Shown in pieces: positions 50,664 to 54,516 of a DNA stretch of 64,000 nucleotides. Every line of letters starts with the position of its first letter. Position 1 is the stretch's first letter. The stretch lies in the NCBI GenBank assembly GCA_905479995.1, contig CAJQON010000028.1:1-64000 (forward strand), given 5' to 3'. Position numbers and translations under genes: made by a program. This stretch comes from an uncultured Flavobacteriales bacterium. Its GTDB lineage: Bacteria; Bacteroidota; Bacteroidia; Flavobacteriales_E; Vicingaceae. The notes below the pieces were generated by a model. That model searched no databases and was not told where the DNA came from. It worked only from the letters and a program-made list of their open reading frames with translations.

Positions 50664-51749
50664 TTAAGCCCCTAATACCTCCTTATAAAATGGAAAATCA
50701 GTGAAGCCCTCTTCTCCCAAAGTATACCAATTAGTTCTATCTCGAACTGCTAAAGGCCAATCATTTTTAAAACGCTCTACTAAATCTGGATTAGCAATAA
50801 AATCACGTCCAAAAGCAATTAAGTCCGCATCATTGTTTTGTAATGCTTTTTCCGCAGTTTCTTTAGTAAAATCACCACATAATATTAACGCACCAGTATA
50901 ATTAGCACGTAATTCTTCCCATAATTTAAACTTTTTAGGGTCAGGTTCACCCATATGACTTAAGTGTAAATAAGCAAGGTTAAATTGATTGAGCTCTTTA
51001 ATTAAAGTGCTGTAAATATTTAATATTTCTGTTGGTTTTTCTTTAGTATCTGCATAACTAAAAGGAGAAATACGTAAAGCAACTTTATCTGATCCAATTG
51101 CTTGGCATGAACTTTTTATTACTTCTAACAAAAATCGCATTCTATTTTCTATACTACCACCATACTCATCTGTGCGAGTGTTGCTTGATTGATTTAAAAA
51201 TTGGTTAGGAAGATAACCATGTGCACTATGCAATTCTACCCCATCAAAACCAGCCTCTATTGATAATCTACAACAATTAACATATTCTTCGACAGATGTT
51301 TTTATTTCATCTATAGTCATGGCTCTAGGAACAGTATAAGGTTGCTTATCAAAATCATAAGTACTTAACTCTCCTTCTTGACTAATTGCTGAAGGACCTA
51401 ATATGATTCCCCCTTTATCCAAATTGTTAACATGCCCAACACGACCAGTATGCATTAACTGCAAATATATTTTTCCACCTTTATTGTGTACAGAGTTTGT
51501 TATTGGAAGCCAAGCCTCTTTTTGTTCATCATTATACAACCCTGGCATATTCGCATAACCAGCACCATTTACTGAAGGAGAACAACCTTCTGCAATAATT
51601 AAACCCGCACTTGATCTTTGGGAATAATAATCTACCATTATCGGAACAGGAACGTGAGTCCTTGTTGACCTTCTTCTTGTTAACGGAGCCATAATAACTC
51701 TAGAAGAAAGTGATAATCCTCTTAAGTTAAATTTATCTAATAATTTCAT
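50664..51749 (-). CDS. Old yellow enzyme family NADPH alkene reductase
   Basis: A 361-residue FMN flavoprotein reducing activated C=C bonds. VIMAPLTRRRSTRTHVPVPIMVDYYSQRSSAGLIIAEG, LMHTGRVGH, and GVELHSAHGYLPNQFLNQSSNTRTDEYGGSIENR are family blocks. The catalytic pair is His-His (HSAH), as in PETN reductase/NemA, rather than His-Asn. It is 11 nt downstream of the glutathione peroxidase gene and shares its promoter, placing it in an oxidative or electrophile-stress response. Confidence 0.94.
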   Translation of the reverse strand: MKLLDKFNLRGLSLSSRVIMAPLTRRRSTRTHVPVPIMVDYYSQRSSAGLIIAEGCSPSVNGAGYANMPGLYNDEQKEAWLPITNSVHNKGGKIYLQLMHTGRVGHVNNLDKGGIILGPSAISQEGELSTYDFDKQPYTVPRAMTIDEIKTSVEEYVNCCRLSIEAGFDGVELHSAHGYLPNQFLNQSSNTRTDEYGGSIENRMRFLLEVIKSSCQAIGSDKVALRISPFSYADTKEKPTEILNIYSTLIKELNQFNLAYLHLSHMGEPDPKKFKLWEELRANYTGALILCGDFTKETAEKALQNNDADLIAFGRDFIANPDLVERFKNDWPLAVRDRTNWYTLGEEGFTDFPFYKEVLGA

Positions 51750-51760
51750 AATAGCAACTA

Positions 51761-52312
51761 TTATAGTATCTCTACAATTTTTTCACTTAATGGCTTTGTG
51801 TTTGACATAAAGTAATCTATCATTTTCCCATCCTCATCTATAAGATATTTTTGGAAATTCCATTTAACTCCAAAATCAACTTTACCATTCATATTTTTAT
51901 TAGTTAACCATTTATATAAAAGATGCTGTCCATCTCCTTTAACCTCAATTTTTTCAGTAATTAGAAATTTAACTCCGTAATTTTTTTCGCAAAATGTCAC
52001 AATCTCACTAGAAGTGCCAGGCTCTTGATTTCCGAACTGATTACAAGGCAACCCGATAACAACAAGCTTGTTCTTAAACTTATCAGAAAGCTCCTGTAAA
52101 CCTTTATATTGAGGTGTGAAACCACATTTAGAAGCAACATTTACAAACAACACCTTCTTACCTTTAAAACTTGATAAATTTATTATTTCACCATCTATAG
52201 ATTTTATTGATACATCTATTTCGTAAAGTGATGTTAGGTTTTGAGAAGATGTTTTTGTGAGTAAACTGAACATAAATAGAATTGATAAAATTATTGATAA
52301 TGTATATTTCAT
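51761..52312 (-). CDS. Exported glutathione peroxidase, cysteine type
   Basis: A 183-residue thiol peroxidase with a signal peptide (MKYTLSIILSILFMFSLLTKTSSQ), so probably periplasmic. The active site is NVASKCGFTPQYKGLQ (Cys in place of selenocysteine), with GLPCNQFGNQEPG and the KWNFQKYLID tryptophan/asparagine completing the tetrad. It is first in an operon with the OYE gene, from a strong consensus promoter with two operator-like sites. Confidence 0.93.
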   Translation of the reverse strand: MKYTLSIILSILFMFSLLTKTSSQNLTSLYEIDVSIKSIDGEIINLSSFKGKKVLFVNVASKCGFTPQYKGLQELSDKFKNKLVVIGLPCNQFGNQEPGTSSEIVTFCEKNYGVKFLITEKIEVKGDGQHLLYKWLTNKNMNGKVDFGVKWNFQKYLIDEDGKMIDYFMSNTKPLSEKIVEIL

Positions 52313-52327
52313 ATTGTTTTTATTAAA

Positions 52328-52366
52328 TGTTTAAACAAACATAATAAAGATTAAACATAATTCAAA
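52328..52366 (-). promoter_or_regulatory. Consensus promoter of the gpx-OYE operon with paired TGTTTAAACA-type sites
   Basis: The minus strand has TTTG (52363-52366), then exactly 19 nt, then TATGTTTG (52336-52343): a full match to the Bacteroidota TTTG-N19-TAnnTTTG promoter. Two candidate regulator sites bracket the -7: TGTTTAATC (52349-52357) and the perfect palindrome TGTTTAAACA (52328-52337), offset 20 bp. Confidence 0.75.
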
Positions 52367-52517
52367 ATCATTTAAATTAATATATACCTTAAAATTTATA
52401 AAGACTATATAGGTCAATTATAAAATAATTAACCTATTCATATGTGTAAAAGAACAAGTCAAGCAAGCAGCTAGCATATCCTTTAATTCATCTCCATTAT
52501 AAAAAAACAAAAAATAT

Positions 52518-52555
52518 TTTCATATTGTTTAACATTTCTGTATATTTGTTAAACA
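52518..52555 (+). promoter_or_regulatory. Promoter of the divergent operon with paired TGTTWAACA sites
   Basis: TTTC (52518-52521), 19 nt, then TATATTTG (52541-52548), one mismatch from the Bacteroidota consensus. Sites TGTTTAACA (52526-52534) and TGTTAAACA (52547-52555) lie 21 bp apart, in nearly the same positions relative to the -7 box as in the opposite promoter. Confidence 0.7.
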
Positions 52556-52580: not shown

Positions 52581-52748
52581 ATGCAATTCATTGAAAAATA
52601 TTACCCAGCCCTACTATCTCTAATTAGTTTTATTCTATCTGTTTCATTATGGTTTAACGGGGACAAAGAGACAGGCTTATATGTCGGTTTGTGGGTACCA
52701 TCAATTCTGTGTTTTGGAATATTTATAAAATTGACAAAAAACCAATAA
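52581..52748 (+). CDS. Small two-helix membrane protein (55 residues)
   Basis: A short gene with ATG at 52581, 33 nt after the -7 box. It encodes MQFIEKYYPALLSLISFILS, a polar turn NGDKETG, then YVGLWVPSILCFGIFIKLTK, that is, two hydrophobic segments. It ends 2 nt before the next small gene. The promoter, coupling and sensible hydrophobic pattern support it. The role is unknown. Confidence 0.7.
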   Translation: MQFIEKYYPALLSLISFILSVSLWFNGDKETGLYVGLWVPSILCFGIFIKLTKNQ

Positions 52749-52750
52749 TC

Positions 52751-52915
52751 ATGGAAAATTTAGCAGCATTTATAGCAGGGTCATTAATATTTATTACTTA
52801 CATGTTTTTTTTACTAAGAATGATTTACAAACAACATAAGATTCAAGAAAAAAGTGATACCCGAATAATTCACATTTCCAAAGAGAAGCTGAAGAATGAG
52901 AAAATTGCATCATAG
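52751..52915 (+). CDS. Small membrane protein (54 residues)
   Basis: The ATG at 52751 lies 2 nt after the previous stop. The product has one hydrophobic helix (MENLAAFIAGSLIFITYMFF) and a charged cytosolic tail ending KLKNEKIAS. The frame is open further upstream, but that would overlap the preceding gene. It is followed by the SDR gene after 81 nt. I do not recognise a family. Confidence 0.65.
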   Translation: MENLAAFIAGSLIFITYMFFLLRMIYKQHKIQEKSDTRIIHISKEKLKNEKIAS

Positions 52916-52996: not shown

Positions 52997-53695
52997 ATGA
53001 AGAATTATGTCATAATAGGCGGATCCTCTGGAATTGGAAAAGAGTTAGTCGAACAAATAGAGACACAAGGAGAAAATTTAATAGCTACCTATAACACAAA
53101 CCTTATAAAAGATAGAGAAAATGTTAAATATATAAAATTTAATGCCCTTGAAGACACTCTAGACCTAGACCTTTTCCCAGATAAAATTCATGGCTTAGCT
53201 TATTGCCCAGGTAGTATTAATTTAAAACCTTTTCATCGCTTTAAAGAAGAAGATTTTATTGATGATTTCAAACTCCAAGTTATAGGTGCCACTAAAGTTT
53301 TGAAACAACTTTTAGGTAAGCTAAAACAAAGTGAGTTCTCTTCAATTCTTTTATTTTCAACTATTGCTGTCCAAAAAGGTTTTAATTTTCATTCTCAAGT
53401 AGCAATGTCTAAAGGTGCAATTGAAGGCCTAACAAGATCATTAGCAGCTGAACTATCTCCTAAAATCAGAGTTAATGCCATAGCCCCATCTATTACAGAT
53501 ACAAATTTGGCCAATAGATTTTTAAATTCTCAATCAAAAATTGATTTACAAGAAAAAAACAACCCTTTAAAAAAAATTGGCGATCCAAAAAACATTGCTG
53601 AAGCTGCTGCATTTTTGCTAACTCAAAAATCATCATGGATTACAGGTCAAATAATACATATAGATGGAGGATACTCCTCTATAAACATTACTTAA
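52997..53695 (+). CDS. SDR-family protein lacking the catalytic tyrosine
   Basis: A 232-residue Rossmann protein of the short-chain dehydrogenase family. The NAD(P) loop is IIGGSSGIGKELVEQ; the active-site region reads FSTIAVQKG...SQVAMSKGAIEGLTRSLAAEL, where the usual Tyr of YxxxK is Val. RVNAIAPSITDTNLANRF and the C-terminal SWITGQIIHIDGG are otherwise normal. In many marine bacteria a similar SDR sits in photolyase/cryptochrome clusters with TIGR03643 and CIA30 genes, as here. Confidence 0.85.
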   Translation: MKNYVIIGGSSGIGKELVEQIETQGENLIATYNTNLIKDRENVKYIKFNALEDTLDLDLFPDKIHGLAYCPGSINLKPFHRFKEEDFIDDFKLQVIGATKVLKQLLGKLKQSEFSSILLFSTIAVQKGFNFHSQVAMSKGAIEGLTRSLAAELSPKIRVNAIAPSITDTNLANRFLNSQSKIDLQEKNNPLKKIGDPKNIAEAAAFLLTQKSSWITGQIIHIDGGYSSINIT

Positions 53696-53719: not shown

Positions 53720-53989
53720 ATGACATTAGTTGAATTAGATAGAATAATAGAAATGGCCTGGGAAGACCGAACTCCTTTTGAAGCAATTAAATTTCAGTTT
53801 AACCTATCTGAATCCGAAATAATAAAATTAATGCGCAAGGAATTAAAAATTAAATCTTTTAAGTTATGGAGAAAAAGAGTTCATAGTAGAATAAGCAGCA
53901 AGCACCTCCATAAAAGAAACCAAGATATTAAACGTTTTAAATCATCTCGTCAAAAAGATATTTCTCACAATAAAATTTCAAAACGATGA
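53720..53989 (+). CDS. TIGR03643 (DUF2805) family protein
   Basis: An 89-residue basic protein. MTLVELDRIIEMAWEDRTPFEAIKFQF, ESEIIKLMRKELKIKSFKLWRKRV and the Lys/Arg-rich tail are characteristic of this family, which contains a short helix-turn-helix-like region. Members lie next to photolyase, SDR and CIA30 genes; function is unknown. It overlaps the CIA30 gene by ATGA. Confidence 0.85.
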   Translation: MTLVELDRIIEMAWEDRTPFEAIKFQFNLSESEIIKLMRKELKIKSFKLWRKRVHSRISSKHLHKRNQDIKRFKSSRQKDISHNKISKR

Positions 53990-54516
53990 AAAACTTAATT
54001 TGTCTATCAGTAATAATGGCACTATCAACCACATACACCATTTTTGATTTTAACAGTAAGTCTGATATAAAAAATTGGAGAATTATTAATGATGCTGTTA
54101 TGGGGGGCGAATCCACAGGCTCAGTTGGATTAAACTTAGATGGACATGCTATATTTAAAGGGGAAGTTTCACTTGCTAACAATGGAGGATTTTCTTCATT
54201 ACGTTATAATTTTAAAAAAATTAAACTCAATAATTACAGTAAAGTAATTCTAAAAATTAAAGGTGATAACAAAAACTATCAGTTTCGATTAAAATCCAAG
54301 TCCACCAACTACTATTCATACATTAAAAGCTTTTCAACAAATGGAAAATGGCAGGAAATCGAAATTCTCCTAAGTGATATGTACCCATCATTTAGGGGGC
54401 GAAAGCTAGATAAACCGAATTTTTCTGAAGACCATATTGAAGAGATTGCTTTTTTAATCGGAAACAAAAGCAATGAAAGTTTCGAGTTGTTAATTGATGA
54501 GGTAAGGTTAAATTAA
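53986..54516 (+). CDS. CIA30-family protein
   Basis: A 176-residue exported protein with a signal-like N-terminus and a CIA30 (NDUFAF1-like) beta-sandwich: WRIINDAVMGGESTGSVGLN, FKGEVSLANNGGFSSLRYNF, LKIKGDNKNYQFRLKS, and IGNKSNESFELLIDEVRLN. Bacterial members are carbohydrate-binding-like and unassigned. It is the last gene of the rightward cassette, coupled to the previous gene by ATGA. Confidence 0.85.
   Translation: MKNLICLSVIMALSTTYTIFDFNSKSDIKNWRIINDAVMGGESTGSVGLNLDGHAIFKGEVSLANNGGFSSLRYNFKKIKLNNYSKVILKIKGDNKNYQFRLKSKSTNYYSYIKSFSTNGKWQEIEILLSDMYPSFRGRKLDKPNFSEDHIEEIAFLIGNKSNESFELLIDEVRLN

Follow-up and report, generated by a model that had tools for sequence, protein, structure and literature searches.

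According to the CarH model, the AdoCbl-bound form of the protein represses in the dark and is released by light (PMC8156234). The CarH operators of Thermus thermophilus and Bacillus megaterium are made of 11-bp direct repeats (nAnnTnnACAn), three or four in tandem. The carB operon of Myxococcus has an operator of approximately 55 bp, extending from -70 to -19, and CarA is relieved by the antirepressor CarS (PMC8156234). Class II LitR proteins are devoid of one of the two B12-binding domains; among them, Pseudomonas PplR1/PmlR2 recognize the site T(G/A)TACA-N12-TGTA(C/T)A, and PmlR2 is under the control of a LOV partner (PMC9758184). A carotenoid cluster with a MerR gene has been described in Nonlabens, with no operator given (PMC11855829). 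We found no published report of the operator presented here, in a literature search that fell short of most subscription journals, so this absence is not proof.

The window analysed here (the whole stretch of DNA, 64,000 nucleotides in length) carries a 30-bp inverted repeat, TGTTTAA-N16-TTAAACA, at two promoters, where it is perfect and has an identical gap. One of these promoters belongs to a minus-strand operon that begins with a glutathione peroxidase family gene (gpx) and continues with an old yellow enzyme gene (OYE), and the other to a plus-strand operon in which two small ORFs are followed by SDR, DUF2805 and CIA30 genes (Table 1). We give a probability of roughly 0.87 to the reading, made from sequence comparisons, that this element is the operator of a CarH/LitR-type, B12-dependent, light-released repressor, and that both window operons fall in its photoprotection regulon.

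This class of regulator is already known, and much of what characterizes it would recur here. The likeness to CarH of Thermus and B. megaterium extends to the MerR domain, the two-part cobalamin region, the Wx9EH and ExH motifs, the linkage to carotenoid genes and the overlap of the operator with the promoter. Myxococcus CarA/CarH at the carB operon are likewise MerR-B12 repressors of carotenoid genes with a large operator lying on the promoter (PMC8156234). With PplR1/PmlR2, the present system shares a two-arm, fixed-gap operator placed over promoters that are light-induced in Pseudomonas, where the regulon includes photolyase and folE genes (PMC9758184). The Bacteroidota operator itself differs from both published types of site. 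Where the published CarH operator has direct repeats, this one has a pair of TnnACA-bearing arms in opposite orientation separated by N16, often with a second operator in tandem about 44 bp away, and an array of at least three direct repeats spaced at 11 bp was not found in it. Compared with the PplR1 site, the arms, the gap and the length are all different (24 bp for PplR1, 30 bp here); TGTACA arms separated by N12 are not what is found, and a gap of 12 is not enriched in the 80 Bacteroidota loci analysed below. The putative regulon is also larger than that of Thermus or B. megaterium CarH, as it would include rhodopsin, ECF sigma factor, gpx and fasciclin genes.

An inverted repeat shared by the two window promoters

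The sequence-only reading had described each window promoter as carrying two TGTTWAACA-like sites 20-21 bp apart, and had predicted from this that a single dimeric regulator represses both operons. The promoter sequences that it quoted are all present at the positions claimed, TGTTTAACA being found at 52526, TGTTAAACA at 52547 and TGTTTAAACA at the gpx promoter. The bases of the paired sites are thus confirmed, but not their register: the fourth site, TGTTTAATC, misfits TGTTWAACA, and the spacing has to vary between 20 and 21 bp. As the direct-pair form thus requires a spacing that varies and a fourth site that fits badly, the inverted-repeat register is to be preferred, and TGTTTAA-N16-TTAAACA is a better reading of the shared element than pairs of TGTTWAACA. 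The prediction of one regulator gains strong support from the element and its gap being the same at both promoters, which hold two of the four perfect copies of the genome.

Table 1. Coordinates of the genes, predicted promoter elements and operators discussed in the text
Feature	Position	Strand	Remarks
Old yellow enzyme / N-ethylmaleimide reductase-like flavoprotein	50664..51749	-	PF00724, E=6.7e-83
Glutathione peroxidase family protein (gpx)	51761..52312	-	First in minus-strand operon; PF00255, E=4.5e-38
Operator 2	52328..52357	.	Perfect TGTTTAA-N16-TTAAACA; straddles -7 box of gpx-OYE operon
Predicted -7 box TATGTTTG	52336..52343	-	Starts at position 15 of operator 2
Predicted -33 element TTTG, gpx-OYE operon	52363-52366	-	N19 before TATGTTTG
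Predicted -33 element TTTC, 52581 operon	52518-52521	+	N19 before TATATTTG
Operator 1	52526..52555	.	Perfect TGTTTAA-N16-TTAAACA; straddles -7 box of 52581 operon
Predicted -7 box TATATTTG	52541..52548	+	Starts at position 16 of operator 1
First small ORF, 55 aa, hydrophobic	52581..52748	+	Opens plus-strand operon; no family
Second small ORF, 54 aa, hydrophobic N terminus	52751..52915	+	No family
SDR-family oxidoreductase	52997..53695	+	PF13561, E=4.4e-38
DUF2805 / TIGR03643 protein	53720..53989	+	Present in 26 of 80 related genomes
CIA30-domain protein	53986..54516	+	PF08547, E=1.1e-39
MerR/CarH-type gene, 305-aa ORF	C27:11949-12866	-	Divergent from carotenoid operon
Tandem operators in own genome	C27:12967 and 13010; C33:3118 and 3160

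No family match was found in Pfam or NCBIfam for the small ORFs at 52581-52915, and an Rfam scan of the window returned no RNA family. Of the two small ORFs that open the SDR-DUF2805-CIA30 operon, at least the first is mostly hydrophobic.

The 3.1-Mb genome was scanned by pattern searches, with the reversed pattern as a control. It contains exactly four perfect copies of TGTTTAA-N16-TTAAACA and none of the control pattern. Beside the two copies of the window, one is found at C27:13010, before a SOUL-crtI-crtB operon, and one at C33:4326, before a photolyase gene. From the rate of control matches in 80 related genomes (nine in all), the probability of finding at least four copies in the genome is about 6e-6. 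Four copies with a single mismatch are also of note: one at C27:12836, just upstream of the likely start of a MerR gene, one at C27:12967, between this MerR gene and the crt operon, and two before a gene for a secreted DUF4397-like protein that neighbours the C33 photolyase gene. When up to two mismatches are allowed, there is no excess of the inverted repeat in the window (3 matches versus 2.98 expected in shuffles) or in the genome (98 versus 91). Only the perfect copies and some of the near-perfect ones stand out from the background.

Two other patterns were dropped: the direct-repeat form TGTTTAACA-N12-TGTTTAACA, which matches the genome 28 times at up to three mismatches against 25 times for its reversed control, and the word TAnnTTTGTTNAA, composed of a -7 box plus a site, with 66 genomic matches against 71 for the control. 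The sequence-only reading had staked its claim on the motif pair being more frequent than at random; this is borne out for the inverted-repeat form, whereas the direct pair stays at control level.

A candidate regulator of the CarH type

Only two genes of the genome match the MerR_1 family. The operon divergent from the MerR gene at C27 reads SOUL, crtI, crtB, a small ORF, idi, crtZ and a lycopene-cyclase-like gene, the crt names being assigned by reading ORFs and SOUL by Pfam. The likely start of the MerR protein is the internal Met13, which is aligned with the starts of relatives, and the protein is probably 293 aa rather than 305 aa long. It has an N-terminal MerR domain (PF13411, E=2.9e-15) and a B12-binding_2 domain (PF02607, E=1.9e-7), and it matches the solved CarH structures 5c8d and 3whp at E values of about 1e-16, in an alignment that enters both the cobalamin-binding helix bundle and the Rossmann domain. 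Two points count against the assignment: PF02310, the second half of the cobalamin domain, is weak in this protein (E=0.071, scoring below the cut-off), and His132 of Thermus CarH is replaced by Ser. Each of the 17 aligned relatives has PF02310 at E<=1, the best value being 9.9e-7. W154-x9-E164-H165 (Wx9EH) and H202 are invariant in 17 homologues, and E200, which together with H202 forms ExH, is nearly so. The ExH motif, a cobalt ligand, is a signature feature of CarH proteins. The same is true of Wx9EH and of the cobalamin-binding motif (PMC8156234). A gene for a cobalamin adenosyltransferase of the PduO type (PF01923, E=1e-60) is likewise present in the genome. Judged by sequence, the C27 MerR protein qualifies as a CarH/class I LitR protein.

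The C27 MerR protein could be the regulator and yet answer to a signal other than light read through AdoCbl, be it redox, B12 status or a partner photoreceptor, as in the case of class II LitR with LOV. Myxococcus CarA and class II LitR do operate with no sensing of light through B12 (PMC8156234, PMC9758184), gpx and OYE would suit oxidative or electrophile stress equally to light, and the weakness of PF02310 in this protein can be read in the same way. This alternative seems unlikely, being opposed by the retention of Wx9EH and ExH in all or nearly all of the 17 homologues, and by the combination of carotenoid, photolyase and rhodopsin targets with an adenosyltransferase gene.

Association of the element with the candidate regulator in the Bacteroidota

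The motif was read from the intergenic regions of the candidate regulator in this genome and in its genus, and then tested elsewhere. The independent test was made on 80 named Bacteroidota loci surrounding regulator homologues, including those of Dyadobacter, Algoriphagus, Roseivirga, Marivirga and Pontibacter. For gaps ranging from 4 to 30 in these loci, 56 pairs of exact arms are separated by N16 and 6 by N17, with one at most at any other gap, and the reversed control gives a single match in all. It could be argued that the likeness between sites is due to chance, as AT-rich promoters in which TAnnTTTG is followed by A/T runs would yield TGTTTAA-like words, and loose versions of the motif do occur at control frequency. 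The gap histogram refutes a chance origin of the perfect copies, and the sharp single gap, the near-empty controls, the placement of the sites and their gene content together reduce this explanation to a negligible probability.

The presence of the element also follows that of the MerR protein. In a set of 392 phylum genomes, 63/90 of those with the MerR protein and 7/302 of those without it contain the element (Fisher p 7e-43). As sites in related genomes cannot be counted as independent events, the association was also tested within the class alone, where it holds (59/76 with MerR versus 2/29 without, p 2e-11); class-level phylogeny is thus no explanation for it. The 80 nearest genomes give a similar picture (38/48 with the regulator versus 6/32 without). 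Against the association, 27 of the 90 MerR-bearing genomes have no perfect copy, and may have degenerate sites or another operator. This phylum-wide association, along with the copies that adjoin the MerR/CarH-type gene and precede carotenoid and photolyase genes, speaks further for one regulator acting on both window operons. The sequence-only reading had left this regulator unnamed; its proposal of tests under light was apt.

The great majority of distinct perfect sites (109/113) fall outside ORFs of at least 120 aa. Each site was assigned to the closest ORF up to 250 bp away, and a site flanked by divergent genes may act on either of them. With this definition, the families found downstream are ECF sigma factors (19), fasciclin (14), TetR (7), DUF4397 (7), bacterial rhodopsin (6), photolyase (4), gpx (3) and 6-pyruvoyl-tetrahydropterin synthase (PTPS, 3), and FAD oxidoreductases reading as CrtI are also found downstream of sites. 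The operator recurs before gpx relatives in L162 and L280, which are 60 and 70% identical to the window gpx.

Given that sites precede ECF sigma (19) and TetR (7) genes, and that an ECF gene often adjoins the MerR gene, the operator could belong to another member of the regulon, a TetR-type regulator or an ECF sigma factor, the CarH-type gene being merely one of its targets. We consider this very improbable. In the genome studied here, the element lies between the MerR gene and the SOUL-crt operon and no ECF gene is found there, while across the phylum it is the MerR gene that its presence tracks. Its arms hold the TnnACA core known from CarH half-sites (PMC8156234), and it is a dyad lying over the -7 box in several helical phases, which is not how a promoter signal for a sigma factor would look. 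In many Bacteroidota (L163-L242, e.g. L171, L189, L191 and L193), the ECF sigma gene directly follows the CarH-type gene, with one or two operators between them, so that the CarH-type repressor may release a sigma cascade.

The recurrence of rhodopsin among the downstream families suggests that rhodopsin in Bacteroidota is under light/B12 control. Genes matching or resembling rhodopsin are preceded by the operator at L157, L160, L249, L252, L255 and L311.

DUF2805 is found in 26 of the 80 related genomes, and 24 of these 26 also carry a CarH-type gene (p 3e-5). Footprinting of the DUF2805 loci of relatives revealed a convincing operator only in the same-genus genome G011, from which it follows that the control of DUF2805 would be locally conserved or exerted via distant operon heads. 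At L277, in a same-genus genome, the operator precedes DUF2805 and the neighbouring genes read as photolyase/cryptochrome genes.

Promoter phasing, tandem operators and the proposed regulon

Of the 125 sites that could be oriented, 50 have a TAnnTTTG box overlapping the operator on the strand that reads towards the gene, as opposed to 4.8 expected from shuffles and 4 on the antisense strand. The -7 boxes start preferentially at operator positions -5, 5 and 15/16, approximately one helical turn apart. The window promoters, with boxes starting at 15 and 16, are among these preferred phases, and the -7 boxes of the crt and photolyase promoters, which start 6 bases ahead of their operators, belong to the -5 class. 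A similar regularity is seen in tandem operators, whose start-to-start spacings cluster at 33-35, 42-45, 53-55 and 62-64 bp, with roughly 10 bp from one cluster to the next (R=0.82, null 95% 0.44; with each spacing counted once, 0.69 versus 0.63). The inverted pair at N16 is the dominant arrangement of the arms (78 cases), direct pairs being found mainly at gaps of 36-37, which are tandem-operator distances, and in the sequence logo nothing between the arms stands out as a third strong repeat. Phased boxes and spacings of this kind suggest that the protein lies over the -7 box on one constant side of the helix and is able to occupy two adjacent operators, which would be in keeping with a dimer- or tetramer-forming repressor. 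The regulator predicted by the sequence-only reading was dimeric, whereas the CarH proteins known so far bind as tetramers.

By analogy with CarH, we infer that the C27 MerR protein binds the element, represses in the dark and is released in the light. In the dark, the AdoCbl-bound repressor would sit on the inverted arms straddling the -7 box and exclude RNA polymerase from the promoter. Light would cleave the Co-C bond and the repressor would leave the DNA, upon which the gpx-OYE and SDR-DUF2805-CIA30 operons would be switched on alongside the carotenoid operon, the photolyase gene and the gene of the repressor itself. A broader reading, which we consider reasonably probable, is that of a phylum-wide B12-dependent light regulon of the Bacteroidota with an operator design of its own, marked by the rigid N16 dyad, the tandems set at helical turns and the TAnnTTTG phasing. 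Rhodopsin, ECF, photolyase, gpx and DUF2805 operons would all be subject to one CarH-type oligomer bridging operators.

The two window promoters would then be an entry to a regulon readable from sequence across the Bacteroidota, as any genome with a CarH-type gene can be scanned for TGTTTAA-N16-TTAAACA. This suggests how a light signal might be passed on to rhodopsin, carotenoid, photolyase and antioxidant genes in this phylum, and may point to a second mode of DNA reading by a CarH-type protein. The compact operator might also serve as a component of B12/green-light switches in these bacteria. The DUF2805, fasciclin and DUF4397 proteins would gain a testable setting.

Genes for secreted fasciclin and DUF4397 proteins rank among those most often found behind the operator (L272, L291, L155, L134 and others). 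G011 carries three copies of the CarH-type gene, two of which are interrupted by stop codons within the matched region, together with ten perfect operators.
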